Shown in pieces: positions 46,661 to 62,126 of a stretch of 64,000 bases of DNA. Each line of letters begins with the position of its first letter. Positions within the stretch are counted from its first letter, which is position 1. The translations under genes and the position numbers were made by a program. Origin of the DNA: Pandoraea aquatica (lineage in GTDB: Bacteria; Pseudomonadota; Gammaproteobacteria; Burkholderiales; Burkholderiaceae). Under the pieces are notes generated by a model. That model did no database searches and was not told where the DNA came from. It saw nothing but the letters and a program-made list of their open reading frames with translations. The stretch lies in NCBI RefSeq assembly GCF_902459565.1, contig NZ_CABPSN010000006.1, positions 124,001 through 188,000 on the forward strand, read 5' to 3'.

Positions 46661-47296
46661 ATGAATTACGCCCAACCCAAACCGCCCGCCCGGAGAATGC
46701 TCGGTATCGGCGTTGCACTGCTGCTGCACGCCCTGATTCTGTACGCCCTGCTCAGTGGACTCGCCACCCGGGTCGCGACGATCATCCAGGCACCCATTGA
46801 GACACGCATCATCGAGGAGATCAAACCGCCTCCTCCGCCGCCCCCGCCACCGCCGGTGAAGAAGATCTCGCCCGCGCCGCGCCCCGTCGTCCAGCCCAAG
46901 GCTTACGTGCCGCCGCCCGAAGTGCAGGTCCAGACCGCGCCACAGCCGAACGCCATCGTCGCGCAGGCCGACAAACCCGTCGAGACCGCTCCGGTCGCGC
47001 CGCCCGCACCGCCGAGCAAGCCCGTGCCCGCCAACGTCGGCGTCGTCTGCCCGAACTCTGCCCAAGTGCGCGCCGCCATCCGGTATCCGCGTGAAGCCCA
47101 GCGCGACAACATCACGGGCAGCGTGCTCGTCGAGTTCGTGGTCGGCACTGACGGACAGATCAAACAGCTTCGCGTCGTCCGTTCGGCCGCACCGGTGCTC
47201 GATCGTGCCGCCGAGAACGCCGTACGCCAGTTCCAGTGCGTTGCACAAGGACAGGAGGTCCGTGTGCAAGTCCCGTTCGATTTCCAACTCAATTGA
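46661..47296 (+). CDS. tonB: TonB energy transducer
   Basis: 211 residues: an N-terminal membrane helix (LGIGVALLLHALILYALLSGL), a proline-rich periplasmic spacer (eleven prolines in a row near residues 56-66, then KKISPAPRP), and a C-terminal TonB domain (RYPREAQRDNITGSVLVEFVVGTDGQI, VDRAAENAVRQFQC). It transfers proton-motive force to outer-membrane receptors. It heads an operon with exbB and two exbD genes, and the receptor it serves is likely the one at 54.9 kb. A run of ribosome-site purines precedes it (AGCAGGCAGGAGAC). Confidence 0.95.
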   Translation: MNYAQPKPPARRMLGIGVALLLHALILYALLSGLATRVATIIQAPIETRIIEEIKPPPPPPPPPPVKKISPAPRPVVQPKAYVPPPEVQVQTAPQPNAIVAQADKPVETAPVAPPAPPSKPVPANVGVVCPNSAQVRAAIRYPREAQRDNITGSVLVEFVVGTDGQIKQLRVVRSAAPVLDRAAENAVRQFQCVAQGQEVRVQVPFDFQLN

Positions 47297-47348
47297 GGCT
47301 GTCCTCAACAGCCCAACTTCCACCCTGATTTACGTCAAGGAGACAACC

Positions 47349-48170
47349 ATGTTTCAGTTCCAATCTCGCGTCACATCACGTGCACGCGGTCTCGCGGTCC
47401 CGATGGCCGTGGTATCGATGATGACGGCATTTGCGTCGCTCAGCGCGCATGCCGCCACCACGGTGACGAACCCCTACGGTCTCGAAGCCCTCTGGGAAGG
47501 CGGCGACATGATCGCTCGCGGGACCTTGCTTATCCTCGTGATCATGTCGATGGGGAGCTGGTACATCATCGTCGCCAAGCTGCTCGAACAGGCCAAGGTG
47601 CTGCGCCGGGCGCGTGCGGCGGAGCAGAAGTTCTGGGGTGCGTCGTCGCTCTCCGAAGGCGTGCGCTCGCTTGATGAGGGCAGCCCGTTTCGCTTCATCG
47701 CCGAAACCGGCTTGTCGGCGCGCGATCACCATCACGGCGCGCTGCTCGAACAGGTCGATCTGAATACCTGGGTGGCCACCGCCATCGAACGCTCCATGAC
47801 AGGCGTGTCGAATCGCCTCCAGGACGGGCTGTCGTTCCTGGGCACGGTCGGCTCGACGGCACCGTTCGTTGGCCTCTTCGGCACGGTGTGGGGTATCTAT
47901 CACGCGCTCACCGCCATCGGCATTGCCGGTCAGGCGTCCATCGACAAGGTGGCGGGGCCGGTCGGCGAAGCGCTGATCATGACGGCGATCGGTCTGGCCG
48001 TGGCCGTGCCTGCGGTGCTGGGCTACAACTGGCTCGTGCGTCGCAACAAGGCCGTGATGGAGCGCGTGCGCGAGTTCGGCAGCGAACTGCACAACGTGCT
48101 GCTCACGGGCAAGACGACCGCGTCGGCCATCGTAGCGACACGCACCTCGCAAGTCGCTCGCGTGGGGTGA
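47349..48170 (+). CDS. exbB: ExbB/TolQ-family proton channel protein
   Basis: 273 residues from the ATG at 47349 (AAGGAG ahead). An N-terminal signal-like segment (AVVSMMTAFASLSAHA) is followed by three helices of the MotA/TolQ/ExbB domain: GTLLILVIMSMGSWYIIVAKL, GLSFLGTVGSTAPFVGLFGTVWGIYHAL and ALIMTAIGLAVAVPAVLGYNW. ExbB with ExbD uses the proton gradient to energise TonB. The N-terminal extension with a predicted cleavable signal is typical of the longer ExbB type in alpha- and betaproteobacteria. Confidence 0.95.
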   Translation: MFQFQSRVTSRARGLAVPMAVVSMMTAFASLSAHAATTVTNPYGLEALWEGGDMIARGTLLILVIMSMGSWYIIVAKLLEQAKVLRRARAAEQKFWGASSLSEGVRSLDEGSPFRFIAETGLSARDHHHGALLEQVDLNTWVATAIERSMTGVSNRLQDGLSFLGTVGSTAPFVGLFGTVWGIYHALTAIGIAGQASIDKVAGPVGEALIMTAIGLAVAVPAVLGYNWLVRRNKAVMERVREFGSELHNVLLTGKTTASAIVATRTSQVARVG

Positions 48171-48174
48171 TGCC

Positions 48175-48609
48175 ATGGCGATGACCCTACCCAGTGGGGA
48201 TGGTGGCGCAGAACACGACGAGGTCATGGCGACGATCAACACGACGCCGCTCGTCGACGTGATGCTGGTGTTGCTGATCATCTTCCTGATCACCATTCCC
48301 GTGGTCTCGCACACCGTGCCGGTCACGCTGCCCAAGGAAGCGGTGCAACCGCTGCAAACCACGCCCCAGAACGTTGTCCTCGCCGTCACCCACGATGGCG
48401 AGGTGTATTGGGACGAGCGACGCATGCCCGACGCCGCGACGCTGCTGGAGAAGCTCAAGGCGGTCGCCGTGCTGACCCCGCAGCCCGAAGTCCATATTCG
48501 CGGCGACCTCGATGCGCGTTATGCGGCCATTGGACGCGTTGTCCTCATGTGCCAGCGAGCCGGCATCGCCAAGGTCGACTTCATTACCGAAGCGCCGCCG
48601 CGTCAATAG
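48175..48609 (+). CDS. exbD: ExbD proton-channel partner, first copy
   Basis: 144 residues with one membrane helix near the N-terminus (TTPLVDVMLVLLIIFLITIPVV), containing the conserved aspartate D28 essential for proton flow, and a periplasmic C-terminal domain (LPKEAVQPLQTTP, HIRGDLDARYAAIGRVVLMCQRAGI). It begins five bases after exbB and is one of two consecutive ExbD genes with only moderate similarity to each other outside the helix. Confidence 0.94.
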   Translation: MAMTLPSGDGGAEHDEVMATINTTPLVDVMLVLLIIFLITIPVVSHTVPVTLPKEAVQPLQTTPQNVVLAVTHDGEVYWDERRMPDAATLLEKLKAVAVLTPQPEVHIRGDLDARYAAIGRVVLMCQRAGIAKVDFITEAPPRQ

Positions 48610-48640
48610 CGCGAGACGCGCACCACCCCAGGAGACTGCC

Positions 48641-49069
48641 ATGGCCATGACCATGCCATCGGGCGCTGGCGAGAACAGCGACATCATGGTGGAGATCAAT
48701 ACGACGCCGCTCATCGACGTCATGTTGGTGCTGCTGATCATGCTGATCCTCACCATCCCGATCCAGACGCATGCCGTCAAACTCGACATGCCCACGCCTT
48801 CCAATGCCGCGCCACCCGCGCCGCCACTCGTCGTACAGGTCGACGTCGACGCCAGCGGTGTCGTGGCGTGGGACGGCTCGCCGCTTGCCGACCGCGCGCA
48901 ACTGGAAACCCGGCTCACCGAAGCCGCGACGTCCACGCCGCCCACCGAGCTGCACCTGCGGGCCGACGCACAAGCGCCCTACCGGGCGGTCGCGATGGTC
49001 ATGGCGTCCGCGCAAAAGCTGGGCGTGACCCGCATCGGCCTCGTCGGCAACGAGCGATTCGCGCAATGA
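48641..49069 (+). CDS. exbD: ExbD proton-channel partner, second copy
   Basis: 142 residues from the ATG at 48641 (AGGAG ahead). The helix TTPLIDVMLVLLIMLILTIPI carries the conserved aspartate D26; the periplasmic domain (HLRADAQAPYRAVAMVMASAQKLGV) differs markedly from the first copy. Two tandem ExbD proteins with one ExbB are known in other TonB systems, where both are needed for some receptors. It ends the TonB energising set. Confidence 0.94.
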   Translation: MAMTMPSGAGENSDIMVEINTTPLIDVMLVLLIMLILTIPIQTHAVKLDMPTPSNAAPPAPPLVVQVDVDASGVVAWDGSPLADRAQLETRLTEAATSTPPTELHLRADAQAPYRAVAMVMASAQKLGVTRIGLVGNERFAQ

Positions 49070-49145
49070 GCGCCCCGGCTGGCCGTCAGTTGCCTCACGC
49101 GCTGACGCGTTAGCCGCCCCACTCGCCCTAATACTGGGACTACAC

Positions 49146-50525
49146 ATGCTGGAAACGAACACCGATACACCGGGGAAGCCGGGGCAGGCGGGGTACGCCA
49201 CCACGGCGCGCCGCGCGCGGTATGCGGGGGTCGGCGCGTGGCTCGGGCTTTTTGCCCTCGTCGTCGTGACCTTCTTTGCCAACGTGGACCGCCAGATGCT
49301 GGTGCTTCTGGCCGAACTCATCCGCGCCGAATTCGGCCTTGCCGACATTCAGGTCGGGCTGTTGCAGGGCGCCGGTATCGCGCTCTTCGCCGGCGCGGCC
49401 GCGATCCCCATCGGGTGGCTGGCGGACCGGATGGACCGGCGTGCCGTGCTGGCGCTTTGCATCCTGCTCTGGAGTGCGGCGACAGCCGCGTGCGGACTGG
49501 CGACCGGCTTCTGGACGCTCTTCATCGCCTCCATCGGTCTGGGCCTCGGCGAAGCGGGACTCATGCCGATCATCTACGGCTTGCTGCCCGACCTCTTTCC
49601 GGCACGACAGCGCATCCTCGCCAACTCCGTCTTCGCCATGGTGAATCTGTTGAGCGCAGGCGCAGGCATGGCGCTCGGCGGGCTCCTGATTCAAGGGATC
49701 GATACGCTGCACGCCACGCTGCCCTTCGGGCTGGCCAGCACGTCTGCGTGGCGGATTGCGTTCTTCGCCGTGGCCGTGCCTGCGCCGTTGCTGGTGCTGA
49801 TCGTTGCGATGATTCGTCCGCATTACGCACATTCGGCGCATTCGGACGTCCCCTCCCCGACCGGTGAGACGGTGGCACCAGGGCTGGCGGCCGGTGAGTA
49901 CTTCCGTCGCGAGATGCCGATGATGCTTCGCTTCTTCGGGGCTATCGCACTGATCAATATGGCGTTCGCCGGGATCACGAGCTGGATGCCGGTCGTCGCC
50001 GTGCGCTTCTTCGGCGCAACGCCCGCGACCGCCGGTGCCGGACTCGGCAGCGCCGCCATGGTGGGCAGCGTGATCGGGTGCGTACTCGGCTGGCTCGTTG
50101 CACGTCGCCTCACCGCCCGACTCGGCGTGCTCGCGCCGCTGCGTGTCTGCGAGTGGGGCGCGCTGGGGGCCTGCGTCGTCAGCTTCGGCTATCTGATCGC
50201 GCCGTCCGTGTCGTACGTCTACCTTCTCTTCGGCGCGCAGTTCATGTGTGTCGTCGCCGGGATGATCATGTTCCCGGGCCTGATGCAGAGCATCTGTCCG
50301 CCGTATCTGCGCTCACGCGTAGCGGCCATCGGCGTGCTGACGACGGTGCTGATGCAGTCCGGCAGCCCCGTCGCTATCGGACTGATGTCGGATCACCTGC
50401 ACGGCACCGCCTCTGGCCTGATCTGGGCCATCGTGGCCGTCGCGTTGTCCGGCTTCATCGTCGCCTGCCTCCTGATGCGCAGCGCCGCCAACGCCGTGCG
50501 CCTCGCCATCGAACGTTACGCATAA
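49146..50525 (+). CDS. MFS transporter
   Basis: 459 residues with about twelve helices. The first-half motif is GWLADRMDRRAVLALCILLWSAATAACGLATGF, with GLGLGEAGLMPIIYGLLPDLFPARQR in helices 4-5 as in anion/glycerol-phosphate-type carriers. It begins 76 bases behind the second exbD and 6 bases ahead of the dipeptide epimerase, so it likely carries short peptides or amino acids released in the periplasm into the cytoplasm. Substrate inferred only from context. Confidence 0.88.
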   Translation: MLETNTDTPGKPGQAGYATTARRARYAGVGAWLGLFALVVVTFFANVDRQMLVLLAELIRAEFGLADIQVGLLQGAGIALFAGAAAIPIGWLADRMDRRAVLALCILLWSAATAACGLATGFWTLFIASIGLGLGEAGLMPIIYGLLPDLFPARQRILANSVFAMVNLLSAGAGMALGGLLIQGIDTLHATLPFGLASTSAWRIAFFAVAVPAPLLVLIVAMIRPHYAHSAHSDVPSPTGETVAPGLAAGEYFRREMPMMLRFFGAIALINMAFAGITSWMPVVAVRFFGATPATAGAGLGSAAMVGSVIGCVLGWLVARRLTARLGVLAPLRVCEWGALGACVVSFGYLIAPSVSYVYLLFGAQFMCVVAGMIMFPGLMQSICPPYLRSRVAAIGVLTTVLMQSGSPVAIGLMSDHLHGTASGLIWAIVAVALSGFIVACLLMRSAANAVRLAIERYA

Positions 50526-50531
50526 GCGCCC

Positions 50532-51548
50532 ATGACGATTCCCTGCACCCTTTCCGTTCGCATCGAACGGTGGCCGCTGGCCACGCCCTTCCACATCTCG
50601 GGTCATACGGTCGATGCGGCCGAAGTCCTGGTCGTCTCACTCAGGTCGGCACAGTGCCGAGGCCGGGGAGAAGCCGCCGGCGTCTACTACCGGCACGAAA
50701 CGCCGGAAAGCATGGCCGAACAGATTGCCGCCGTCCGTGCCGACATCGAGCGCGGCATCTCCCGTGAAGACCTCATCTCGCTGTTACCTGCCGGTGGCGC
50801 GAGAAATGCCGTCGATGCCGCGCTATGGTCGCTGGCCGCCCAGCGGTGCGGCATGACGGTGGCACGGCTGTCCGGACGTGCACGCCTGCGCCCGCTGCGC
50901 ACGTCGCTCACGGTCGGGGTCGATTCGGCGGAGGCGATGGCGGATGCGGCTCGTCGCTATACGGGCGCGACGACGTTGAAGATCAAGCTGGACGGTAACG
51001 CGCTCGACGCTGAGCGCCTCGTCGCGATTCGCAAGGCTTGCCCCGAAGTCGCACTGGCCGTGGACGCCAATCAGGGCTGGACGCCAGACCACATGCACCG
51101 GATGCTGCCGGTCTTGCAGCAAGTCGGCGTCGACCTGCTCGAACAGCCGTTGCCCGTGGGCAAGGACGAATGCCTCGAATCGATGTCGTACCCGATTCGT
51201 CTCGCGGCCGACGAATCGTTTCAGGATCTGAGCGATCTCGCCGCCGTCGCGCGCCGGTATGACGTCGTCAACATCAAGCTCGACAAGTGCGGTGGCCTCA
51301 CTCGTGCGCTGTCGCTCGTCGCGCCGATTCGCGATCTCGGTCTGTCGGTCATGGTCGGATGCATGCCCTGCACCTCGCTCGGTCTGGCACCGGCCTACCT
51401 CCTCGGGCAGGTCTGCGACCGCGTCGATCTCGACGGTCCCTGCTTTCTGGCCGAGGACCGCTCGCCTGCGTTCCAGTACCGGAACGGGTACGTACTCGGG
51501 CCTGACAGCTTGTGGGGCATCGACGATGCCGAACGGATCGCAACGTGA
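50532..51548 (+). CDS. Dipeptide epimerase (L-Ala-D/L-Glu epimerase-like, enolase superfamily)
   Basis: 338 residues of the enolase superfamily. Catalytic bases K150-x-K152 and K249 flank the metal ligands D178, E204 and D227. DLDGP near residue 300 is the D-x-D motif that binds the free amino group of a dipeptide, a hallmark of dipeptide epimerases over other members. It inverts the C-terminal residue of a dipeptide in the cytoplasm. It lies between the MFS carrier (six-base gap) and a D-aminopeptidase-like hydrolase (15-base gap), which together would convert and cleave D-containing dipeptides. Confidence 0.9.
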   Translation: MTIPCTLSVRIERWPLATPFHISGHTVDAAEVLVVSLRSAQCRGRGEAAGVYYRHETPESMAEQIAAVRADIERGISREDLISLLPAGGARNAVDAALWSLAAQRCGMTVARLSGRARLRPLRTSLTVGVDSAEAMADAARRYTGATTLKIKLDGNALDAERLVAIRKACPEVALAVDANQGWTPDHMHRMLPVLQQVGVDLLEQPLPVGKDECLESMSYPIRLAADESFQDLSDLAAVARRYDVVNIKLDKCGGLTRALSLVAPIRDLGLSVMVGCMPCTSLGLAPAYLLGQVCDRVDLDGPCFLAEDRSPAFQYRNGYVLGPDSLWGIDDAERIAT

Positions 51549-51563
51549 TTCAGGAGGATTGCC

Positions 51564-53231
51564 GTGTCAGCACGCGTGCCCTTTGACGACGAGGCCCTCA
51601 TCGCGCTATTCGAACCGTTCAACCGAAGCGACGCACCCGGTGTCGTCGTCGGCGCGGCCATCGATGGAAAGATTGTGTTACGCCGCGCCTTCGGGATGGC
51701 GAACGTTGGACTCGGCATGGCCCTCGATGCGCGGACTCGACTGCGTATCGGGTCGACGACGAAGCACATGGCTTGCCTTGCCGCCCTGTTGCTTCAGGAG
51801 GCTGGAGCGCTCGATATCGATGCGCCCATCCGCCGATACTTGCCGGAACTGACGGGCATCGCCGGTGAGCCGACGCTGCGCTCGTTCATGCACCACACCA
51901 GCGGCCAGCGCTGCGCGCTCGACATCTCGCTGCTCACCAACGGATTGGCAGTGCCGCAGGCAGGCTATCTGCTCGATATTCAGCACCGACAGACCCACGT
52001 CAACTTCCCCGCAGGGGCGCGGATGATGTACTGCAACGGCGGCTACCACCTGATGTCGCTGGCCATCGAACGTGTCAGCGGACAATCGTTCGCGTCGTTC
52101 CTTACGTCCGAAATCTTCGAACCGCTGGGCATGAGCGATACGTTCTGCCTGCCCGACGATTTCCGGATTCGAAACCGCATGGCCGCATGCCATGTGAAGC
52201 GCAGCGACGGGATATATGAACGGGGTCTGTTCCCTTCGCGCGAAATACTCGGCGAAGGCTGCGTCGTCTCCAGCGTGGACGACATGCTGCGATGGTGCGC
52301 CCACCTGCGCGGCGAAAAGTCAGTCGGCAATCGCACCACCTGGGAAGCGATGTTCTCGTCGCCCATGTTCTCCAGCGGACTGCGCAGCGATTACATGATG
52401 GGGCTGAAGCGCACGCAGTATCGCGGGTGCGAACTGATCCACCATGCGGGCGGTGTCGTTGGGGGAACGTGCCAGATGTTGTGCGTGCCTGAGTACGGCG
52501 TCGACATCGTGTTGTTGAGTAACGGTGCCATCCCGGCACCCGTCGCGTTTTCGCTGCGCATGCTCGACATCCTGCTGGCCGACCGGATGCAGGCGTATCC
52601 GGTGCCAACGCCCGCGCAAATACTCTCGTCTTCCGCGCTAGCGGGCACCTATCGCGAAGTGAATGGAGACGTCGTGTACGACATCGTCGAACGTAACGGC
52701 GCGATGACGCTCGGCGGTCCGCTCGAACCGAGCATCTCGTCGCTGTACGAGCTTGACGCGCGAGATGACGGCCCTCGCGAATTCGCGCTGGAGTCGAGCG
52801 GCGACGGGACATTCCGGTTGCGGTGGGGCACCGATCCCTCGCACCTGCACATCACGCATTGCGGCCACACGGCAATCTATCGCCGCATCGAAACGCCAGC
52901 GAGGATCAGCGCAGAAGATATCGAGGCCTTGTGCGGCGCTTATCTCAGTGAAGAAGCAGACGCTTGCGCGACGTTGCGCCCTTCGACGCTGGATCATCGG
53001 ACGGACACAGACATCGACGTCGTCATGTCGCTGGTGATCGCGGGAAAGGCAGGAGAATGCGCCTATGACGTCTTCCCCGTCGACATCGACCTCCTCCGCT
53101 TCTCTCCGAGTGAGCCGAATGCCATGCTAACGGGAACGATTGCGATCGTCAGGCACCCGGACACCGGGCTTGTGGCGGGGATCTCTGTCAGCACCCTCCG
53201 AACGCGAAACCTTCGATTCGGAAAGTCCTGA
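51564..53231 (+). CDS. Serine hydrolase, D-aminopeptidase-like (class C beta-lactamase fold), copy 1
   Basis: 555 residues starting at a GTG with AGGAGG ahead. The penicillin-recognising fold has S64-x-x-K67 (GSTTKH), Y156-C-N158 and H294-A-G296. This set is close to that of Ochrobactrum D-aminopeptidase (Ser62, Lys65, Tyr153, His287). The C-terminal 200 residues form extra beta domains also seen in DAP, which gate the active site. It removes N-terminal D-residues or hydrolyses related amides. No signal peptide is visible, so it is cytoplasmic. It is the last gene of the tonB operon. Confidence 0.88.
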   Translation: MSARVPFDDEALIALFEPFNRSDAPGVVVGAAIDGKIVLRRAFGMANVGLGMALDARTRLRIGSTTKHMACLAALLLQEAGALDIDAPIRRYLPELTGIAGEPTLRSFMHHTSGQRCALDISLLTNGLAVPQAGYLLDIQHRQTHVNFPAGARMMYCNGGYHLMSLAIERVSGQSFASFLTSEIFEPLGMSDTFCLPDDFRIRNRMAACHVKRSDGIYERGLFPSREILGEGCVVSSVDDMLRWCAHLRGEKSVGNRTTWEAMFSSPMFSSGLRSDYMMGLKRTQYRGCELIHHAGGVVGGTCQMLCVPEYGVDIVLLSNGAIPAPVAFSLRMLDILLADRMQAYPVPTPAQILSSSALAGTYREVNGDVVYDIVERNGAMTLGGPLEPSISSLYELDARDDGPREFALESSGDGTFRLRWGTDPSHLHITHCGHTAIYRRIETPARISAEDIEALCGAYLSEEADACATLRPSTLDHRTDTDIDVVMSLVIAGKAGECAYDVFPVDIDLLRFSPSEPNAMLTGTIAIVRHPDTGLVAGISVSTLRTRNLRFGKS

Positions 53232-53245
53232 GCGAGTCCTGAGCG
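53227..53245. repeat. Tandem 11-bp duplication over a stop codon
   Basis: GTCCTGAGCGA is followed by a second near-identical GTCCTGAGCG copy right at the end of the hydrolase gene, so the stop TGA occurs twice. It does not alter the product. It marks a recent slippage event. Confidence 0.6.
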
Positions 53246-53258
53246 CTAACGTCAAACA

Positions 53259-53284
53259 GGGAGGGTGCCCGAAAGGCCCCTCCC
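53259..53284. terminator. Probable bidirectional terminator between convergent hydrolases
   Basis: GGGAGGG (53259-53265) pairs with CCCTCCC (53278-53284) around a 12-base loop, in the 63-base gap between the two convergent hydrolase genes. Confidence 0.65.
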
Positions 53285-53294
53285 CGCTTCGTCG

Positions 53295-54929
53295 TTACCC
53301 AATACGAGAGAACGTCAGCCCCCGCGTACGGGAGGTGTTCAGCGAAAACCGCGTGGCCTTGTCTTCGCTACGCTCGACCCGTGCTGTGCCAGCGCTAAGC
53401 GCAGACGCATCGGCCGGTTCGAACGTCCAGACTTCACGGGTGAGTGCATTGAGGTGATAACGCACACTTCCCGTCGCACCGCGAATGGACAACGTCAGTT
53501 CGCCATCGATCATCGAAATGACGGCGTGCGCGTCAGCGTCGTGACTGAAGTACTCGCCACAAAGTCCTTCCGCGCCCAACGCCTCTGCCGGCGGCACACC
53601 TTCATAGCGCGTCAGCGTCACGACGTGTCCGCAGTCGATGAAATCGATGGCGGGCACACTGCCGGACGCCACACGCTCGTGCGGTATGACACGCATCCGC
53701 GCGCCGGCGCCATCCTCGATGCGATATCCCCGCTCGTCGGCAATCAGCGGCTGCGGCGGGTAGGGTTGATTCTGCGGCGACGCATGAAGGCCCCCCTCCC
53801 GCTCCACGATCTCCACCAACTGAAGCGGTGCGGCGCACAAGTACTTCCCAAGCAGACCGGGATTTGCCGACGTCGGCTCTGCCGTCTGACGAGGGGGGCC
53901 GAGCACTTCGTCGCCAAGAACGATATCGACAAACTCAGTCGCCAGCGCGACGGGATCGACTGGCGCGCCGTTGCTCATCAGGACGATATCGAGCGCGTGC
54001 GACGGTACCGTCAGCATTTGGCAAGTACCGCCGAAGACACCGCCCGCATGATGAATGGTCTCGACGTTGCGATACTGAGTACGCATCAGACCCGATGCGT
54101 AAACGCCGACCTCCCCACTCGAATACGTCGGCATTTCCAGCATTTCACGCCACGTGTCGGGACTTCCCAGCCTGCCGGGCCGACGCAGATGCGCAGCCCA
54201 CTTCAGCATGTCGTCGATCGTGGAAACGATACCGCCTTCACCCAACACCTCATGACTCGGGAACAGCCCGCGCAGATAGCCACCCTCGCCGTCAGGCACA
54301 TGCTGCGTTGCCATGCGCGGCCGGATGCGCAGATCGTCGCCGACGGACTCGGTGTCGCTCATGCCCATCACGCGGAAAATCCGCTCGTCGAGAAACTTTT
54401 CGAACGACATTTCACTGACGCGCGCAATGATGAGCGACAGCAGGTGATATCCGCCATTACAGTAGAGCATGCGCTCGCCCGGGGCGAAGTTGACGTCCTG
54501 CTGACGCAACTCGATGGCCAGTGGCACGCCGGGTCCAATCGCATTGATGCCCTGCGTGATAACCGATAGGTCCAGATAGCAACGATAGCCGCTGGTGTGC
54601 GTCATCAACTGACGCAGCGTCGGCTCCCCCGCCAACACCGGGAGTTCCGGCATATAGGTGCGAACACTTGCATCGATATCCAGCTTGCCGTCCTGCGCGA
54701 GCAGCAGCGCGGCGAGGCAGGTGAAGTGCTTGCTGGTCGAGCCGATGCGCATGCGGGTGGCCGGCGTGTTGGCCACCGCATGTTCGAGGCTCGTCATGCC
54801 GAACCCCTTGCGGTACAGCGCGCGCCCGTCACGGGCGACGCCGACCACGAGCCCCGGCGCATCGCTTCGGTTGAATCGCGCGAGATGCGCGTCGAGGCGA
54901 GCGTGCAGGTCTTGTTGTTGCAAAGTCAT
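53295..54929 (-). CDS. Serine hydrolase, D-aminopeptidase-like, copy 2
   Basis: 544 residues, a clear paralogue of the copy at 51.6 kb. The catalytic set is S64-x-x-K67 (GSTSKH), Y156-C-N158, and IHHAGG; the shared blocks FNRSDAPG, LLLxxDGxLDID, GEPTLRQLMTHTSG and MLYCNGGYHLLSLII are almost the same in both. The C-terminal domains are more diverged. It lies convergent to copy 1 and in a run ahead of no other gene, with the TonB receptor gene upstream on the same strand 17 bases away, so they probably form an operon. Different substrate ranges from copy 1 are likely. Confidence 0.87.
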   Translation of the reverse strand: MTLQQQDLHARLDAHLARFNRSDAPGLVVGVARDGRALYRKGFGMTSLEHAVANTPATRMRIGSTSKHFTCLAALLLAQDGKLDIDASVRTYMPELPVLAGEPTLRQLMTHTSGYRCYLDLSVITQGINAIGPGVPLAIELRQQDVNFAPGERMLYCNGGYHLLSLIIARVSEMSFEKFLDERIFRVMGMSDTESVGDDLRIRPRMATQHVPDGEGGYLRGLFPSHEVLGEGGIVSTIDDMLKWAAHLRRPGRLGSPDTWREMLEMPTYSSGEVGVYASGLMRTQYRNVETIHHAGGVFGGTCQMLTVPSHALDIVLMSNGAPVDPVALATEFVDIVLGDEVLGPPRQTAEPTSANPGLLGKYLCAAPLQLVEIVEREGGLHASPQNQPYPPQPLIADERGYRIEDGAGARMRVIPHERVASGSVPAIDFIDCGHVVTLTRYEGVPPAEALGAEGLCGEYFSHDADAHAVISMIDGELTLSIRGATGSVRYHLNALTREVWTFEPADASALSAGTARVERSEDKATRFSLNTSRTRGLTFSRIG

Positions 54930-54946
54930 TGGAAACTCTCCGAGGA

Positions 54947-57316
54947 TTAGAACGGCACCGTCAGCACGGCACCAAACGTGCGCGGACGCTCCACGCTGAC
55001 CAGCGCCGGGCCACCCATCGGCATCAGTGCGGTGCCAGCGGCCAGCAGCGCGCGACGGTCGAACAGGTTGCGCAAATAGAAGTTCAGGCTCGCGCGGCCG
55101 AAGTCGATCCCCGCCAGCAGGTCAGTGACGGCGTAGCCCGGGAGCTGGTAATCGGGGCGGCCGGTGCTGTTGCTGAAGCCCGAGTGACGACGACCGACAA
55201 TGCGCTCCGCAATACCGACGTACGAGGCATACGAGCCGAGCGAGAAGTGATACGTCCCCGTCAGCGTGGCCGAGAACTTCGCCGAGTTCGGCAGCGGGTC
55301 GCCCGACTGCGTGCCGGTCGACGCGTTGCCCTGCGTCAGCTTGGCATCGATGTACGAGAAGCCGACGCCGAAGTTCCAGTGCCGATCAGGGCGGAAGCTG
55401 CTCGCCAGCTCGAAACCCTTGATGCGCGCATTTCCTGCATTGAGCACCTGATTGACACCTTCGATTGCGCCGAGCTGCTGGATGTTCTTCCACTCGATGT
55501 CGTAGACGGTGGCCGACAACGACAGACGCTTATCGAACAGGTCTGCCTTGTAGCCCGCTTCATACGTCCAGAGCGTGTCCGGCTGGAACGTGGCGTTACC
55601 GTTGCCTGGCAACCCCGTGATCGGGCTGACGAGCTGCGCATTCGGTCCGCCCGGGCGATAACCGCTGGCCGCACGGACGTAGACGTTGCTGTTCTCGGTC
55701 AGGCCGTAGCTCGCCGTCAGCATGTAAGTCTTGCTGGTGTCGGACGAGGGTGCCGAAATCGTTTGCATCGGTCCGCCCAGCAACCCGCCGGTGGTCTGGT
55801 CGAAGTTCTGGTTGTTGTGGGCAATCCGCATGCCGCCGGTCAGTGCCAGTCGCGGCGTCACGTGGTACGTGAGGTCGCCGTACGCGGCGTATTCTGTGTA
55901 GGTGCTCGGTGCCGTGAGCGACGAGAGGTACCCTGAAGATCCGTCGGCAAACCCCGCGACAATGCCCTGGTCAGACTCGCTGCGCTCACGCGTGAAGAAG
56001 AGTCCCGCGATCCATTCAAGCTGACGGTTTCCAGGCGACGTCAGACGAAACTCTTGCGTCACCTTGTTCGTCGAGGCGATGTTCGCCGCCACGACCGAGT
56101 TCAGATTCAGCCCCTGCGCGGCCAACGCTGGCACGTACACCACAGACAGATCCTGCGGCGCATTCGTCTTCACAGACTGGTACGACGTGATCGAGTTAAA
56201 GCGCGACCATCCGAAGTCATACTCCAGCCCGAGCGAGTAAAGCTGCACGTTCTGATGGAACGGCTCGGGCGCATAGATGCGCGTGGTCAGATCGCCGTCG
56301 ACGGGTTTGCCCGTGTTGTCGTAGGCCACATAGTTCGGGGCATTACGGTTGATGTTCTGTGTGATCGCGCTCAGACGCACGGTGAACTGGCTCGTGGGCG
56401 TGAGCAGCAGCGAGGCGCGTGCACCGTACGTGTCGCCCCGGTCGACGCGCGTGCCTGCCTGCGGCCCGACGGCGTCGATATAACCGGCATCGTGTTGACT
56501 GAACGCCGACACGCGCACGGCCGCCACATCGTTCTTGATGGGGATGTTGAGGACTGCGCTGGCCGTGTTGCCGATGCCGCCGTGCTTGGTCGTCGACAAA
56601 CCTGCACTCGCCTGACCGGAGAACGTGTTGGTATCCGGCTCGTTGGTGACGTACTTCAACAACCCGCCCATCGCACCTGCACCGTAGAGCGTGCCCTGCG
56701 GCCCGCGCAGCACTTCGATGTGATTCAGGTCCAGCAGGCTCATGTCCAGCGCGAACGTCGCGCCTTGCGAGAACAGCGTGCTCCCGCCAAAGGCGACGTC
56801 ATCGACATAGACGCCCACGGTCGGTCCCGTTTGCTCGCCGGTCGTCACACCGCGCATACTGATCTGTCCCGCACCGCTGCCGCCCTGCGTGTTGAGGTCG
56901 ACGCCGGGCTCCGACGAAAGGAAATCCGACATCGTCTTGGCACCGCTCTTCTGCAACTCTTCCGCCGAGATGACGTTGATCTGCATCGGCACTTCGCGTG
57001 CCGGTTCGCGACGACGTGTTGCCGTCACCACGACGGTGTTGAGCGTTGCGCCGTCCTTTGCCGTGGCCGGGGTCACGGTGGGTGCCGCGCCGGGGACGAC
57101 TGCATTCGCGTCGGCCGAAGGGTTGGCCGTCACGGTGGCGCTCTCGGCTTCAGCACTGACCGCAGACGCGGCACCGGGCGGCGTCACGGTCTGCGCATGA
57201 CCATAGGCCGATGCCAGCCCCAGCAGTGAACCGACCAGCCAGGTGCCGCCGTTGGGTCGAAGTCTGAAACGGTGCAAAGTGCCTGCGGTCTGCCTGCGAT
57301 GCTGTCTGATTGCCAC
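54947..57316 (-). CDS. TonB-dependent outer-membrane receptor
   Basis: 789 residues from a GTG at 57316, chosen because GGAGGAG lies six bases ahead; an ATG at 57352 would add twelve residues. A basic signal peptide (WLVGSLLGLASAYGHAQ) is followed by a TonB-box-like region (LNTVVVTATRRREP), the plug domain (REVPMQINVISAEEL, PGVDLNTQGG, QISMRGV, TVGVYVDDV) and a 22-strand-type barrel ending in FGAVLTVPF with the terminal Phe. It imports a large or scarce ligand through the outer membrane. With peptide enzymes around it, the ligand is more likely a peptide than a siderophore. Confidence 0.93.
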   Translation of the reverse strand: MAIRQHRRQTAGTLHRFRLRPNGGTWLVGSLLGLASAYGHAQTVTPPGAASAVSAEAESATVTANPSADANAVVPGAAPTVTPATAKDGATLNTVVVTATRRREPAREVPMQINVISAEELQKSGAKTMSDFLSSEPGVDLNTQGGSGAGQISMRGVTTGEQTGPTVGVYVDDVAFGGSTLFSQGATFALDMSLLDLNHIEVLRGPQGTLYGAGAMGGLLKYVTNEPDTNTFSGQASAGLSTTKHGGIGNTASAVLNIPIKNDVAAVRVSAFSQHDAGYIDAVGPQAGTRVDRGDTYGARASLLLTPTSQFTVRLSAITQNINRNAPNYVAYDNTGKPVDGDLTTRIYAPEPFHQNVQLYSLGLEYDFGWSRFNSITSYQSVKTNAPQDLSVVYVPALAAQGLNLNSVVAANIASTNKVTQEFRLTSPGNRQLEWIAGLFFTRERSESDQGIVAGFADGSSGYLSSLTAPSTYTEYAAYGDLTYHVTPRLALTGGMRIAHNNQNFDQTTGGLLGGPMQTISAPSSDTSKTYMLTASYGLTENSNVYVRAASGYRPGGPNAQLVSPITGLPGNGNATFQPDTLWTYEAGYKADLFDKRLSLSATVYDIEWKNIQQLGAIEGVNQVLNAGNARIKGFELASSFRPDRHWNFGVGFSYIDAKLTQGNASTGTQSGDPLPNSAKFSATLTGTYHFSLGSYASYVGIAERIVGRRHSGFSNSTGRPDYQLPGYAVTDLLAGIDFGRASLNFYLRNLFDRRALLAAGTALMPMGGPALVSVERPRTFGAVLTVPF

Positions 57317-57604
57317 TGTCGTCTCCTCCGGGGGTTTCCGCGCTTCGGTCATCGCCGATGCCTTCGCGGTATGGATCGTTTGCGCGGTGCGTCCACGCTC
57401 ATCAGAGTCTTAGCTCTGGCATGCACGTTATTTGTGCGATATTTCTGGTTCATGTGGACTTTGTATCGCGCGTGAAACATAGATCCCCTGAGCACAGCCT
57501 CTCGCCCTTCCTGGGTTCAAGCGGACGGTGCGTGCTCCCGGATGTTTCCGTCCTGAAACAATCTGTTGACGAAGCCGCTACATGCGCGCGGGATAATGGC
57601 CCGC

Positions 57605-58636
57605 ATGTTCGAGATCACTTCTACTGCGCCGGCCGCCATCCCCATGCAAAAGCCATCGTTCGATTCCGCGTTCTATCGGCTGCTGTTCGTCATGCTTGTC
57701 ATGGTGGCGATGACACAGGTCGGCACCGGCTTGCTGGTGTACACGCTCTACTCCGAAGCCGCGTTCAAGCCACCGCCCGGTATGTCGACCGGATTGCAAT
57801 GGGGACTGGCTGCCGCCGTGCAGATCGTGCCGTTGCTCGTCTCGTCGTGGGTCGGCGCGCGCATGCTGTCGGGGCCGTTCCGGTCACTCGCAGCTGGCGC
57901 AGCGGCGTTGTCGCGCAATATCGACGCACCGCCGATTCCCGAAGCCGGTCCGATCGAAGCGCGTCAGGCGGCGCGCGTTTTCAACTCGATGCAAGCGGCG
58001 ATCCGACGTCAGGTCAACGACCGCAATCGCTTTCTGGCTGCGGTGTCGCATGACCTGCGCACGCCGCTCACCCGCATGCGCCTGCGGGTGCGTACGCTCG
58101 AAGGCTCAGAGTTCAACGACCGGATGATTGCCGACATCGACGAGATGACGCAGTTACTCGACGCAACACTCTCGTTTCTTCGTAACGAAGCGGTTACCGA
58201 AGAATTGAGCCCCATCGATATCGATGCGCTGATGGACGCCATCGCAGAAGATGCACTGGAACGCGGTCAGAATGTCTCGGTGCACGGTGCCATTGCTCCG
58301 CTGTCCGCACAGCCGCTCGCGTTGAAACGCTGCCTGACCAATCTGGTCGCGAACGCCATCCGCTACGGCGGCGAGGCACGCATCGAACTGATCGACGGCG
58401 AGAAAGAAGTGCAGATCGATATCGTGGATCGTGGCCCCGGCATACCGGAGCGCGATCTCGAGCGGGTCCTGGAGCCGTTCTTCCGGCTTGAGGGTTCTCG
58501 CAGCCGCGACACGGGCGGCACCGGACTCGGGCTGGCCATTGCTAACGATGTCGTGAAGCGTCACGCGGGCTCGCTGACGCTGCTCAACGCGCGAGACGGC
58601 GGGCTGATCGCCCGCGTGGTGCTACCGAGGCGGTAA
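57605..58636 (+). CDS. Sensor histidine kinase
   Basis: 343 residues from the ATG at 57605 (57596 or a TTG at 57566 are possible; none has a strong ribosome site). Two membrane helices (YRLLFVMLVMVAMTQVGTGLLV and WGLAAAVQIVPLLVSSWVGA) enclose only about 17 exposed residues, so there is no real periplasmic sensor domain. HAMP follows, then the H-box AAVSHDLRTPLTRMRLR, N-box NLVANAIRYGG, DRGPGIPERD and GGTGLGLAI. No response regulator is next to it; the orphan regulator at 45.7-46.4 kb is the nearest candidate. Confidence 0.92.
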   Translation: MFEITSTAPAAIPMQKPSFDSAFYRLLFVMLVMVAMTQVGTGLLVYTLYSEAAFKPPPGMSTGLQWGLAAAVQIVPLLVSSWVGARMLSGPFRSLAAGAAALSRNIDAPPIPEAGPIEARQAARVFNSMQAAIRRQVNDRNRFLAAVSHDLRTPLTRMRLRVRTLEGSEFNDRMIADIDEMTQLLDATLSFLRNEAVTEELSPIDIDALMDAIAEDALERGQNVSVHGAIAPLSAQPLALKRCLTNLVANAIRYGGEARIELIDGEKEVQIDIVDRGPGIPERDLERVLEPFFRLEGSRSRDTGGTGLGLAIANDVVKRHAGSLTLLNARDGGLIARVVLPRR

Positions 58637-58719
58637 CCGTCATACAGACGTGTGGGCCGTCGTGTGTGTCAATGTCGATACACACTGCTCACAATCAGGC
58701 AATGCGGTCCTCATAGAGT

Positions 58720-58751
58720 GTGTGAAATGGCTTCAATGGCTTTCTTCACAC
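58720..58751. promoter_or_regulatory. Possible operator ahead of the M81 gene
   Basis: GTGTGAA (58720-58726) and TTCACAC (58745-58751) form an inverted repeat with an 18-base spacer 13 bases before the M81 start. A weaker GTGTGT/ACACAC pair lies upstream near 58671-58685. Confidence 0.4.
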
Positions 58752-58764
58752 CTCTGGACTCGCA

Positions 58765-60222
58765 ATGAAGATCTTCGCCGCAAACCTTTCTACCGAAACA
58801 AACACATTCGCGCCGTGCCCCACCGGATGGGGCGGTTTTCAGGAGAACGGGATCTACCGGGGCGACGCAAGCCTCCGTGCGTCCGACGGCGTGGGGTATA
58901 TGTTGGCCGAACTTCGTCGTCTCGCAGAAGCGGACAGTCACGAACTGGTCGAAGGACTGAGTGCCGAGGCGCAACCGTCTGGCCCGGTAATTCGGGAAGT
59001 CTACGAAACCTTGCGCGACGAAATCGTCGCCGGTGTGCGGGCCGCCTTGCCGCTCGACGCCGTCGTCCTCCTGCTGCACGGCGCGATGGTGGCGCAGAAC
59101 CACGACGACTGCGAAGGCGATCTGCTCGCATGCGTTCGCGAAGTGGTCGGCCCGGATGTCCCCATTGCCGCGACGCTCGACCCGCACTGCCACTTCACCG
59201 AGCTGATGCAGTACGCGGCCAATATTCTCATCGCCTACAAAGAGTATCCGCATACCGACGGCATCGATCGGTTGCATGAACTCTATCGACTCGTGACGCA
59301 AGCGGCCGAGCGCAAAGTCTCGCCGGTCACTGCCGTGCACGATTGCCGGATGGTCGGTGCGTGGCACACCACGACGGAACCGATGGCGGGCTTCGTTCGC
59401 CGGATGAAGTCGTTCGAGGGCCACGACGGCATTCTGTCCGTCTCGCTGGGTCACGGCTTTCCGTGGGGCGATGTGCCCGAGGCCGGGGCAAAGCTCTGGG
59501 TCGTTGCGGACGGCGACCCACAGCGTGCGGCGGCACTGGCACATCAACTGGGCAACGAGTTCTGGGCGTTGCGTCACGAAGTCCAGCCCCAGTGGCTCGA
59601 CCTCGATCACGGACTCGACGTGGCGCTCGCCGTCGGCACGGGCCCGGTGGTCGTCGCTGATGTGGCGGACAACCCGGGCGGCGGTGCACCAGGCGACAGC
59701 ACGTTCATCCTTCGACGGGTTGTCGAACGAGACATCTCCAACGTCGCACTGGGTTGCTTCTGGGATCTCGGCGCCATTCAGATTTGTGCAGACGCGGGCG
59801 TCGGGGCCACGCTGGACCTTCGGATCGGCGGAAAGTGCGGCACCGCCTCGGGCGATCCCATCGATCTGCGCGTGACGGTGCGGGCAGTGCACGATACGCA
59901 CTCGCAGAGCATTCGCGGCATGTCGATTCCGTTGGGACGCTCAGTCTGGGTGGAAGGTCCGAACGGACTGGACATCGTGCTCGTCTCCGTGCGAACGCAA
60001 GTGATTGGCGTCGACGCGTTCACTGGCCTCGGTATTGCGATGGACGCCAAGCGTCTCGTCATCGTGAAATCGACGCAGCACTTTCAGGCGGAATTTGCGC
60101 CGCGTGCGAAGGCCGTCGTTCATCTCGCAGCCCCCGGGGCACTGACGCCTGACTTCGCTGCGCTTCCCTATCGACACCGCAGCCTCAAGTACTGGCCTCG
60201 CGTCGAGAATCCGTTTGTTTGA
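58765..60222 (+). CDS. M81-family metallopeptidase, microcystinase (MlrC)-like
   Basis: 485 residues matching the two-domain MlrC family: MKIFAANLSTETNTFAP at the start, LLLHGAMVAQNHDDCEGDLL, ATLDPHCHFTELM with D/H residues of the metal site, then YKEYPHTDGIDR; the C-terminal domain starts about residue 290 with DVADNPGGGAPGDST, GGKCGTASGDPI. MlrC finishes the breakdown of microcystin and nodularin by cleaving linear peptides, including those with Adda or D-residues. Homologues in Burkholderiaceae lack the full mlr set, so the natural substrates here may be other D-containing peptides. No signal peptide is visible. Confidence 0.9.
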   Translation: MKIFAANLSTETNTFAPCPTGWGGFQENGIYRGDASLRASDGVGYMLAELRRLAEADSHELVEGLSAEAQPSGPVIREVYETLRDEIVAGVRAALPLDAVVLLLHGAMVAQNHDDCEGDLLACVREVVGPDVPIAATLDPHCHFTELMQYAANILIAYKEYPHTDGIDRLHELYRLVTQAAERKVSPVTAVHDCRMVGAWHTTTEPMAGFVRRMKSFEGHDGILSVSLGHGFPWGDVPEAGAKLWVVADGDPQRAAALAHQLGNEFWALRHEVQPQWLDLDHGLDVALAVGTGPVVVADVADNPGGGAPGDSTFILRRVVERDISNVALGCFWDLGAIQICADAGVGATLDLRIGGKCGTASGDPIDLRVTVRAVHDTHSQSIRGMSIPLGRSVWVEGPNGLDIVLVSVRTQVIGVDAFTGLGIAMDAKRLVIVKSTQHFQAEFAPRAKAVVHLAAPGALTPDFAALPYRHRSLKYWPRVENPFV

Positions 60223-60321
60223 TTCTCGACATTTCGCACGCTAAGGAAACGCCACTGAATTTATGCCCGCCATACGCGGGCCGGTCTGACGATTTGCCGG
60301 GCTTCGCCAAAACTCCGGCAA

Positions 60322-60354
60322 ATTTTTGCCCTTCCTCGCGAAGGGCATTTTTTT
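60322..60354 (+). terminator. Terminator of the M81 gene
   Basis: TGCCCTT (60327-60333) pairs with AAGGGCA (60341-60347), followed by seven T residues (60348-60354). A second small repeat with CCGG sits before it. Confidence 0.85.
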
Positions 60355-60355
60355 G

Positions 60356-61588
60356 TCAGAACCGGTCCGCGCGAAACGGCGTCGGGTCGACCAGCGTCTG
60401 CTCACCCGAGATCATCTCGGCGATCAGACGTCCCGTCACCGGCCCGAGCGTCAGACCGTGATGCGCATGACCGAACGCGAACCAAAGGTCGCGATGGCGT
60501 GGCGCCGGACCGATGATCGGCAGCATGTCGGGCGTGCAAGGTCGGCTGCCCATCCACGGCTCGGCTTCGACCGCCTCGCCCAGCGGGAACAGGCTTCGGG
60601 CCAACGGTTCCACCGCCGCCAGTTGAACCGGCGTGCGAGGCGCGTCGCGCAATGCAAGTTCGACGCCCGTCGTCAGACGAATACCCTGATTCATCGGCGC
60701 CATCACAAAGCCGCGCTCGGCATCCAATACCGTTTGGTTCAACGTTGCACCGTTCGCCGGGCGGAAATGCCGGTGATAGCCGCGTTTGGACACCAACGGC
60801 AGCCGGTAGCCCAGCGCGTTCGTCACGGTATCGGACCACGGCCCCATCGCGACGACGGCGTGCCGGCCTTCGATCTCACCCGCTTCCGTCTGCACGCGCC
60901 ATTGGGGCTTCAGTGTGGTGGCATCTCCCCGGACGATGCGTCCGCCGAGCGACGTGAAGTGCTGCGCGTAGCGGCTCACCAGTTCGCCGGGATCGCGTAT
61001 CGAACCGGACGCCGTGTAGCGAATCGCCCCGGCCAGCGTTGCCGCGAGCGACGGCTCGTCGCGTTGAAGCTGTGCGGCGTCGAGCGGCTCGAACGGCACG
61101 TCGTACTCGCTTCGCCAGCGCTCGGCTTCGCGGTACGCGCTGTCGAACGCGCCTGCGGTATGGAAGACCTTCAACCAGCCGCCCGCGCGTAGCAGATCCT
61201 GCGCGCCCGCACGTTCGATCAGCGCATTGTGCTCCGTCAGACAATGCTCGATGAGGGTGCTGTAGTGGCGGGCGATCTGCACATGACGGTGCGGTGCGGA
61301 GTGGTGCCAGTAGCGTGCGAGAAACGGCGCGATGCTCGGCAGTGCCGCCGGGTGATAGCGCACGTCCGTGGATCGATTGCGCGCGTAGTGAAGCAGCGTG
61401 CCGACGTCTCGGGGGAACGCGTACGGATACACACCTTCGCGCTGTATCAGCCCGGCGTTGCCGTAGGACGTCTCTCGCCCCGGCGCGGCGCGGTCGACCA
61501 GAACCGTGTTCAGCCCCCGGCGCTGAAGGTGGATCGCGATGGAGGTGCCGACAATGCCGGCACCGAGCACAAGCACGTCGGCTGTCAT
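60356..61588 (-). CDS. FAD-dependent D-amino-acid dehydrogenase-like oxidoreductase
   Basis: 410 residues from the ATG at 61588. The FAD-binding motif GAGIVG lies at residues 9-14 with SIAIHLQRRGLNTVLVD, and the DAO-family C-terminus includes AEPWMGSRPCTPDMLPIIGPAP and FGHAHHGLTLGPVTGRLIAEMI, as in DadA-type enzymes. It oxidises D-amino acids to imino acids, passing electrons to the chain at the membrane. The ATG overlaps the RidA stop by four bases, a functional pair: RidA hydrolyses the imine. The substrate range is unknown. Confidence 0.9.
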   Translation of the reverse strand: MTADVLVLGAGIVGTSIAIHLQRRGLNTVLVDRAAPGRETSYGNAGLIQREGVYPYAFPRDVGTLLHYARNRSTDVRYHPAALPSIAPFLARYWHHSAPHRHVQIARHYSTLIEHCLTEHNALIERAGAQDLLRAGGWLKVFHTAGAFDSAYREAERWRSEYDVPFEPLDAAQLQRDEPSLAATLAGAIRYTASGSIRDPGELVSRYAQHFTSLGGRIVRGDATTLKPQWRVQTEAGEIEGRHAVVAMGPWSDTVTNALGYRLPLVSKRGYHRHFRPANGATLNQTVLDAERGFVMAPMNQGIRLTTGVELALRDAPRTPVQLAAVEPLARSLFPLGEAVEAEPWMGSRPCTPDMLPIIGPAPRHRDLWFAFGHAHHGLTLGPVTGRLIAEMISGEQTLVDPTPFRADRF

Positions 61589-61938
61589 GCCAGCGCCGTC
61601 ACGGCAATTTCCACGTCGAACCCGGCGCGCATCAGCAGCGACTGAACGCACGCACGCGTGGGCGCATGGCCTTCCGGCACCCACACATCCCAGACACGGT
61701 TGAATTCGTCGAAATGACGCGCATCCGACAGCCAGATGTTCGCCGTGAGAAGACGCGTCTTCTCGAGCCCCGCCTCCGCCAGCAGCGCGTCGATGTGCTT
61801 AAGCACTTCGATGGTCTGATCGGTGATCGTCGCGCCCGCCGTATCCGGCACCTGACCGGCCAGATGGACCACCCCGTTAGCCACGACTACCTGACTCATG
61901 CGGGTGTTGGTTTGCAAGCGCGTGATGTCTTTCTTCAT
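61585..61938 (-). CDS. RidA-family enamine/imine deaminase
   Basis: 117 residues of the YjgF/YER057c/UK114 family: VVANGVVHLAGQVPDT at about 16-31, TIEVLKHIDALLAEAGLEKTRLLTANIWLSD, with the arginine in TRACVQSLLM and the closing glutamate of DVEIAVTALA as the expected anion-binding pair. It hydrolyses reactive enamines and imines to keto acids plus ammonia in the cytoplasm. It precedes and is coupled to the D-amino-acid dehydrogenase, and both are divergent from an XRE-cupin regulator. Confidence 0.92.
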   Translation of the reverse strand: MKKDITRLQTNTRMSQVVVANGVVHLAGQVPDTAGATITDQTIEVLKHIDALLAEAGLEKTRLLTANIWLSDARHFDEFNRVWDVWVPEGHAPTRACVQSLLMRAGFDVEIAVTALA

Positions 61939-62013
61939 GGTTCGAACTCAAAAAAGAAAAGTGAATGGACGACCGCTAACGTAGACTCGACGGATTCGCG
62001 GCTGCTTGAATTA

Positions 62014-62049: not shown

Positions 62050-62126
62050 ACACTGACACCGTAACGAGATCAACGACGCCGTGTTTTGTTCGGAGGATAT
62101 GAACGGGACACGTTCAGTGAAGTGCT

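Follow-up and report, generated by a model that had tools for sequence, protein, structure and literature searches.

A conserved TonB-linked gene block of Pandoraea aquatica with a probable role in the uptake and degradation of small D-residue peptides

The window described here, a stretch of 64 000 nucleotides from Pandoraea aquatica (contig NZ_CABPSN010000006.1, positions 124,001–188,000; host genome size 5.96 Mb), contains a block of 15 genes (Table 1) that is likely to be an inducible system for the uptake and degradation of small peptides with D-residues, probably non-acidic ones; that the substrates contain D-residues is suggested by the enzyme families encoded. An initial annotation, made from the letters of the window, had proposed that peptide uptake and catabolism are linked here and served by a dedicated TonB-ExbB-ExbD-ExbD set; its observation was confirmed and its interpretation was partly supported. 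The present reading is based on the gene order conserved in nine Pandoraea relatives, linkage across 70 loci, a corresponding set in Variovorax, the co-occurrence of the S12 hydrolase and the epimerase, the distribution of an operator-like palindrome, the kept catalytic residues of the S12, epimerase and M81 enzymes and the neighbours of M81 genes on plasmids, all of which were established by computation.

All of the genes named in the initial annotation are intact open reading frames (ORFs) at approximately the positions first assigned to them, and each exceeds a Pfam gathering score. The Pfam scans covered the 18 proteins of 42657–63594 and the models concerned are TonB_C, MotA_ExbB, two ExbD, MR_MLE_N/C (epimerase), two Beta-lactamase (the S12 hydrolases DAP1 and DAP2), the barrel and plug of the TonB-dependent receptor, DUF1485 and MlrC_C (M81 metalloenzyme), DAO (flavoprotein) and Ribonuc_L-PSP/RidA. 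The TonB_C, MotA_ExbB and ExbD domains lie side by side, which upholds the dedicated energizer. The block is larger than first described: four further genes encode a major facilitator superfamily (MFS) carrier, an XRE-cupin regulator and a two-component pair made up of a histidine kinase (HK) and a response regulator (RR). Since the NCBIfam single-function enzyme models reported all scored under their cut-offs, the protein names used here are family names only. The nearest named relatives of the block are from Pandoraea species, with identities of up to 85% for DAP2 and up to 96% for M81.

Within Pandoraea, the S12 hydrolase was found in 12 of 32 genomes including that of P. aquatica (E ≤ 1e-60), the receptor in 12 and the epimerase and M81 in 11 each at the cut-offs used. 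Neighbourhood conservation, which the initial annotation had named as a check, was borne out: the order from RR through M81, with DAO next, is kept in nine of the 11 relatives' stretches examined in the genus, and the set recurs in other genera. One of the nine, from P. eparura, has only a partial DAO match in three pieces, and neither RidA nor XRE was detected there. In P. bronchicola (G004), RR is followed on one strand by tonB-exbB-exbD-exbD-receptor-MFS-epimerase-S12-S12 and then by an M17 aminopeptidase, with no M81 relative at E ≤ 1e-100 or 1e-70. P. horticolens (G013) has M81, the receptor, one S12 gene and the TonB set together with S9, M20 and MFS_2 genes, with no epimerase at the cut-off used. 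Two M81-receptor pairs lie within ∼13 kb in the latter (L053:9942–13758 and L036:1150–7334), one of them enclosing an S9 prolyl oligopeptidase. A further group in genome G001 (L054:6283–17168), ∼20 kb from the main block, comprises S12, amidohydrolase, M81, MFS, receptor, TonB, ExbB, ExbD and ExbD.

For the wider survey, a profile search was made with one genome per species; the best 80 of 136 DAP2 matches were merged to 70 loci (eight from Pandoraea) and neighbours were counted at E ≤ 1e-10 in stretches of up to 10 kb on either side of the S12 gene, some of which were ended by a contig edge. M81 is present in 61 of the 70 loci, the receptor in 60, MFS and the epimerase in 40 each, ExbD in 24, XRE-cupin in 23, ExbB in 18, DAO in 17, HK in 17, TonB in 16, RR in ten and RidA in nine, counts that are not independent because several loci come from one genome. 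Contrast genes from outside the block were found in two (MFS1), one (amidohydrolase) and one (HAD). Without Pandoraea, the counts are 54/62 (M81), 52/62 (receptor), 33/62 (MFS) and 33/62 (epimerase). The annotated order in Variovorax paradoxus VAI-C is receptor, dipeptide epimerase, TetR, β-lactamase family protein, MFS, M81, aminotransferase, RidA, FAD oxidoreductase, TonB, ExbB, ExbD and ExbD, all on one strand except TetR. This conserved linkage, the Variovorax set included, sustains the claim that uptake and catabolism are linked and have a dedicated TonB set.

Co-occurrence was followed in a family sample of 249 genomes, 32 of them Pandoraea, with thresholds of 1e-70 for S12 and M81 and 1e-50 for the epimerase. 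Matches were obtained in 17 (S12), 21 (M81) and 17 (epimerase) genomes. S12 and the epimerase occur together in 16, each without the other in one, and are both missing from 231; for S12 and M81 the corresponding figures are 16 with both, one with S12 only, five with M81 only and 227 with neither. The genomes of the sample are related, so that Fisher values for this co-occurrence are not independent evidence. All of the shared genomes have both an M81 and an epimerase match no more than 9 kb from a DAP2 relative, on one contig; for P. horticolens (G013) this M81 is the second-best match, the best lying ∼15 kb away. The arrangement is new and built from known families: no description of this gene combination was found in the open-licence literature searched. 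Among phage relatives of DAP2, none of the 17 records covers 80% of the query. On a plasmid of the sphingomonad Sphingobium sp. V4 that is typed as conjugative (L129:9761–15841), S12 is preceded on one strand by a receptor-like ORF of 728 residues and followed by an MFS-like ORF and then an epimerase.

The RR/tonB and receptor/HK gaps have a conserved stretch in common, built around the 18-base palindrome TGTWTC-N6-GAWACA. When one mismatch is tolerated, the 64 kb window holds five copies, compared with a mean of 0.14 over 100 shuffled sequences. Every copy is in a gap between block genes, one each before RR, tonB, the receptor, HK and M81. Four exact copies exist in the genome, three of them in the block; the fourth (L154:4051–4068, contig C1) is near genes for an SNF-family transporter and a pyridine-nucleotide-disulphide oxidoreductase. 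Over the 70 loci there are 54 sites, against 1, 2 and 6 in three runs with Markov-1 sequences; 53 are in gaps before block-type genes and one is inside a receptor gene (L116). All 17 loci with an HK of 50% identity or more contain the palindrome, as do two of the 53 without, namely L116 and L082, a short contig from the same assembly as L069. Spacing is also conserved: the site is 73–75 bases before the M81 match in 14 loci (six from Pandoraea, seven from Burkholderia/Paraburkholderia, and L062), with 82 bases in the window, and 78–79 bases before tonB in ten (seven from Pandoraea, two from Ralstonia, and L062), with 78 bases in the window. In the Ralstonia loci L063 and L065, no site preceding M81 was found at the cut-off used. 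From its distribution, the palindrome probably joins the uptake genes, the hydrolases and M81 in one regulon, and the RR of the block may be the protein that binds it.

The S12 residues Ser64, Lys67, Tyr156, Asn158, His294 and Gly296 (SxxK, YxN and HxG motifs) are invariant in 47 rows. The Ser-to-Tyr and Ser-to-His spacings are 92 and 230, compared with 94 and 230 in MlrB as computed from residue numbers in PMC11070527. The D-aminopeptidase (DAP) of Ochrobactrum (Brucella) anthropi (1ei5) has the same catalytic motifs and a similar length (E 7.8e-25 for DAP2), but the window proteins (118.7 and 144.1 bits) are far under the cut-off of 443 for the D-aminopeptidase equivalog NF009622. DAP_B (PF07930) was matched at E ≤ 1 in ten of the 47 homologues (best 8.2e-05) and is unmatched in the window DAP2. 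The two hydrolases first called D-aminopeptidase-like keep the motifs of that family and miss its equivalog; release of N-terminal D-residues is a candidate activity, from family membership. A simple hydropathy scan of the S12 and M81 N-termini gave no evident signal sequence.

Judged from its residues, the epimerase is catalytically complete, with the KxK, DxN, E, D, KxD and DxD positions kept in all 43 rows of the alignment. Its nearest solved relative is the E. coli L-Ala-D/L-Glu epimerase 1JPD (E 7.3e-69), and this kinship, with the retained DxD and catalytic lysines, would suit peptidoglycan scavenging, in which muropeptides are imported and L-Ala-D-Glu is converted to L-Ala-L-Glu. However, position 24 carries Gly in the window protein, as opposed to Arg in both 1JPD and 4GFI, and is non-Arg in 35 of the 43 rows (Gly in 34, Cys in one, Arg in eight). 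We take Arg24 of 1JPD to bind the Glu side chain. The substitution makes L-Ala-D-Glu and muropeptide substrates less likely, so that the dipeptide epimerase of the initial annotation is upheld in its catalytic set and less so in these substrates. Furthermore, the L-Ala-D/L-Glu epimerase model PRK15129 scores 275.4 bits (cut-off 343) and no γ-D-Glu-DAP endopeptidase family occurs among the 18 proteins scanned. The loci for murein peptide recycling in E. coli and Bacillus subtilis likewise have an enolase-superfamily epimerase with full catalytic residues and DxD, whereas the window epimerase, apart from Gly24, is partnered by S12, M81 and an outer-membrane receptor instead of γ-D-Glu-DAP peptidases. 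We therefore consider peptidoglycan scavenging unlikely. Catabolism of D-glutamate of the DgcN-DgcA type is favoured by the best-scoring epimerase model, NF042940 for the N-acetyl-D-Glu racemase DgcA (373.2 bits, below the cut-off of 400). The DgcN family, which we take to be DUF1611 (PF07755), is absent from all 32 Pandoraea genomes searched, so that the DgcA reading was rejected as extremely unlikely. The review PMC5808125 describes YcjG as narrow for C-terminal Glu and the Thermotoga enzyme as active on L-Ala-Phe, L-Ala-Tyr and L-Ala-His.

The M81 protein, first described as a member of the microcystinase family, retains the zinc ligands of MlrC (Glu39, Asp167, His169 and His191), as do 89–90 of 90 rows. 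Of the ten substrate-binding residues of MlrC (listed, with the zinc ligands, in PMC9982164), three are kept (Asn41, Asp341 and Ser392), whereas Trp59, Phe67, Glu70, Phe96, Gln468, Ser485 and Arg492 are replaced by Tyr, Ala, Gly, Glu, His, Ala and Leu, respectively; a second alignment places Glu70 opposite Asp and Phe67 opposite Arg. In a tree of 91 M81 rows, made by a quick method and with a long 7YLQ branch, the window protein is in a 56-row group (99) within a 70-row group (97), and 7YLQ is in a separate 11-row group (97). The split is not clean: the M81 proteins of the S12 loci L054, L088 and L095, one of the two L102 rows and a three-row Paraburkholderia group are outside the 70-row group, and L115_1118, from a Caulobacteraceae S12 locus, is within the 11-row group of 7YLQ. 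The family assignment was retained and a microcystinase function for this gene was rejected, as neither tree position nor contact residues support it.

The sphingomonad mlr cluster (mlrC-A-D-B) is among the nearest known systems. According to PMC11070527, PMC12474180 and PMC6563193, it combines the S12 hydrolase MlrB, modelled on the O. anthropi D-aminopeptidase, the M81 enzyme MlrC and the transporter MlrD. S12, M81 and a transporter are likewise together in the window, and M81 shares the zinc ligands and three contacts noted above; MlrB and MlrD were compared through published descriptions only. In contrast to mlr, with its seven differing MlrC contacts, the window adds a receptor, the TonB set, the epimerase and HK/RR, and no CPBP (MlrA-type) protein was matched among the 18 proteins of 42657–63594, to which that search was limited. 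A signal peptide is predicted for MlrB (PMC11070527), whereas the window S12 proteins show none. A plasmid search with 7YLQ for a true mlr cluster gave 280 records, all below 60% identity, and a Sphingobium S12 protein, searched against 289 genomes of the class of G032 towards a sphingomonad genome, gave nothing at E ≤ 1e-100. The block appears to resemble the mlr cluster in outline, and the tree does not support kinship by descent.

Two sets of the same families are present in Roseateles (Paucibacter) toxinivorans DSM 16998, which we take to be strain 2C20: S12-MFS-S12-M81-epimerase-receptor (L073) and receptor-MFS-S12-M81 (L156), the latter with its epimerase match farther along, among six M81 matches in total. 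Beside the intact first set, a partial S12 and a partial M81 (L073:16755–17847) look like a decayed extra copy. Strain 2C20 is described in PMC8068134 as degrading microcystins and other cyanopeptides without the mlr pathway; the Roseateles sets and mlr-independent microcystin breakdown are linked by association only.

M81 genes on plasmids were examined in ten stretches, seven annotated and three without annotation. RidA, flavoprotein or D-threonine-aldolase-family genes are near M81 in four of the seven annotated stretches; the remaining three have no such neighbour (any flavoprotein being ∼5 kb away), and in two of these other genes are next to M81. The sets of Sulfitobacter alexandrii and Comamonas antarctica, like the window, have an XRE regulator and a flavoprotein in the vicinity of M81 (in Comamonas also RidA), but they have TRAP or tripartite importers instead of receptor, TonB and MFS; no S12 or epimerase is annotated in the stretches examined. 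On plasmid 1 of Paracoccus denitrificans PD1222 (L149), M81 stands in a row of genes, after MFS and serine hydrolase and ahead of leucyl aminopeptidase and M42 peptidase; no receptor is annotated in the stretch.

Some results weigh against a D-peptide system. For the receptor, the best-scoring models are those of siderophore and haem receptors, and the nearest solved chain is the pesticin receptor. The D-aminopeptidase equivalog is missed, and the eight homologues retaining Arg24 imply that the linked epimerases are not uniform. Besides the non-independence of the locus counts, the contrast genes are farther from S12 than most block genes, the MFS and receptor families are large and matches as weak as 25–38% identity were counted, and TonB itself is in just 16 of the 70 loci.

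The receptor match (TIGR01783, 170 bits; cut-off 223.5) and a FecR gene beside one Roseateles copy would fit uptake of a peptide siderophore (or haem), with the hydrolases freeing iron from the imported ligand. A scan of four intergenic gaps for Fur-like boxes gave best scores of 9–10 of 19, which were reached by 130–199 of 200 shuffles, and iron regulation was rejected; moreover, no siderophore reductase or iron ABC importer is among the 18 proteins scanned, and the epimerase, S12 and M81 enzymes indicate peptide catabolism. Iron uptake is thus distinctly unlikely. Detoxification or resistance, in which S12 would inactivate an imported or self-made peptide antibiotic and catabolism would be secondary, draws on the S12 fold common to β-lactamases and ClbP and on the lower conservation of DAP1 and DAP2 (51564–54929), the least conserved proteins of the block (80–85% identity versus ∼91–99% in the three closest relatives). 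Active import through a dedicated receptor is poorly compatible with protection, the S12 proteins lack an evident signal sequence and a PADLOC defence scan of four proteins gave no match, so that we regard this role as very unlikely.

The D-amino-acid dehydrogenase-like flavoprotein of the initial annotation has the DAO domain but falls short of the DadA model PRK00711 (154.8 bits; cut-off 383). It and RidA are present as claimed, but they are a separable, optional add-on to the system. The block palindrome was not found in the ridA/XRE gap, so that DAO-RidA is probably under the control of the XRE-cupin protein. A different palindrome, TCTCGTATACGAGA, was noticed by eye in this gap (61939–62126) and is a possible XRE-cupin site.

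For the block as a system for D-residue peptides, we infer the following order of steps. The receptor, energized by its own TonB-ExbB-ExbD-ExbD set, would import the peptide to the periplasm and the MFS carrier would transfer it into the cytoplasm, where the two S12 hydrolases and the M81 metalloenzyme would cleave it. The epimerase would invert the C-terminal residue of dipeptides, allowing ordinary peptidases to complete the breakdown, and, where present, the DadA-like flavoprotein would oxidize freed D-amino acids and RidA would clear imines. HK may sense the peptide or the envelope state, with RR acting at TGTWTC-N6-GAWACA before the five genes listed above.

A broader proposal, which we consider doubtful, is that S12-M81-epimerase-MFS-receptor sets are widespread, undescribed TonB-dependent loci for nonribosomal D-residue peptides, that the Roseateles toxinivorans copies perform or support mlr-independent cyanopeptide breakdown and that sphingomonad mlr was put together in parallel from these enzyme families. 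Should the reading of the block as a D-peptide system be right, many Burkholderiales and some other proteobacteria would possess a ready-made means of feeding on peptides with D-amino acids, which are usually regarded as poorly degradable. Its conserved operator, together with the sensor kinase, would give a direct route to the natural ligand, and the Roseateles copies would turn mlr-less microcystin degradation (PMC8068134) into a question of gene deletion. These copies would also be relevant to where mlrB and mlrC came from, an origin called unknown in PMC6563193.

Table 1. Genes and operator-like sites of the block (window coordinates; a point marks sites without strand).
Feature	Position	Strand	Evidence and remarks
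RR, OmpR-type response regulator	45661–46374	-	Response_reg, Trans_reg_C; 91–99% identity in nine Pandoraea loci, where it forms the left edge of the block
Palindrome TGTTGC-N6-GAAACA upstream of RR	46492–46509	.	Operator-like; kept in Pandoraea relatives
Palindrome TGTATC-N6-GATACA	46565–46582	.	Operator-like; 78 bases before tonB
TonB	46661–47296	+	PF03544, E 6.9e-17
ExbB	47349–48170	+	PF01618, E 7.2e-33; first ATG in frame; scanned stretch from 47343
ExbD copy 1	48175–48609	+	PF02472
ExbD copy 2	48641–49069	+	PF02472; scanned stretch from 48635
MFS transporter, proposed inner-membrane peptide carrier	49146–50525	+	PF07690; 11 hydrophobic segments
Enolase-superfamily dipeptide epimerase-like protein	50532–51548	+	Family models; catalytic residues and DxD
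DAP1, S12 hydrolase (D-aminopeptidase-like)	51564–53231	+	PF00144; Ser, Lys, Tyr, Asn, His invariant in 47 rows
DAP2, S12 hydrolase (D-aminopeptidase-like)	53295–54929	-	PF00144; 1ei5 D-aminopeptidase, E 7.8e-25
TonB-dependent outer-membrane receptor	54947–57352	-	PF00593, PF07715
Operator-like palindrome, receptor/HK gap	57462–57479	.	109 bases before receptor start
Operator-like palindrome just upstream of HK	57543–57560	.	Pattern scan
HK, EnvZ-like sensor histidine kinase	57566–58636	+	HAMP, HisKA, HATPase_c; best NCBIfam EnvZ, 203.7 bits (cut-off 415)
Operator-like palindrome before M81	58665–58682	.	82 bases from M81
M81 metallopeptidase (MlrC superfamily)	58765–60222	+	PF07364, PF07171
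DAO, DadA-like FAD oxidoreductase, optional add-on	60356–61588	-	PF01266; family scans began at 61684
RidA-family protein, optional add-on	61585–61938	-	PF01042; 4-base overlap with DAO
XRE-cupin regulator	62127–62792	+	HTH_3, Cupin_2

The starts of ExbB and DAO in Table 1 are probable corrections, and that of the second ExbD was corrected likewise. Scans for σ70 promoters and terminators gave no more matches than shuffles. With the corrected starts, the tonB/exbB/exbD/exbD gaps are 52, 4 and 31 bases (46, 4 and 25 with the scanned starts), and gaps of 4–76 bases across the run from tonB to DAP1 fit a single operon.

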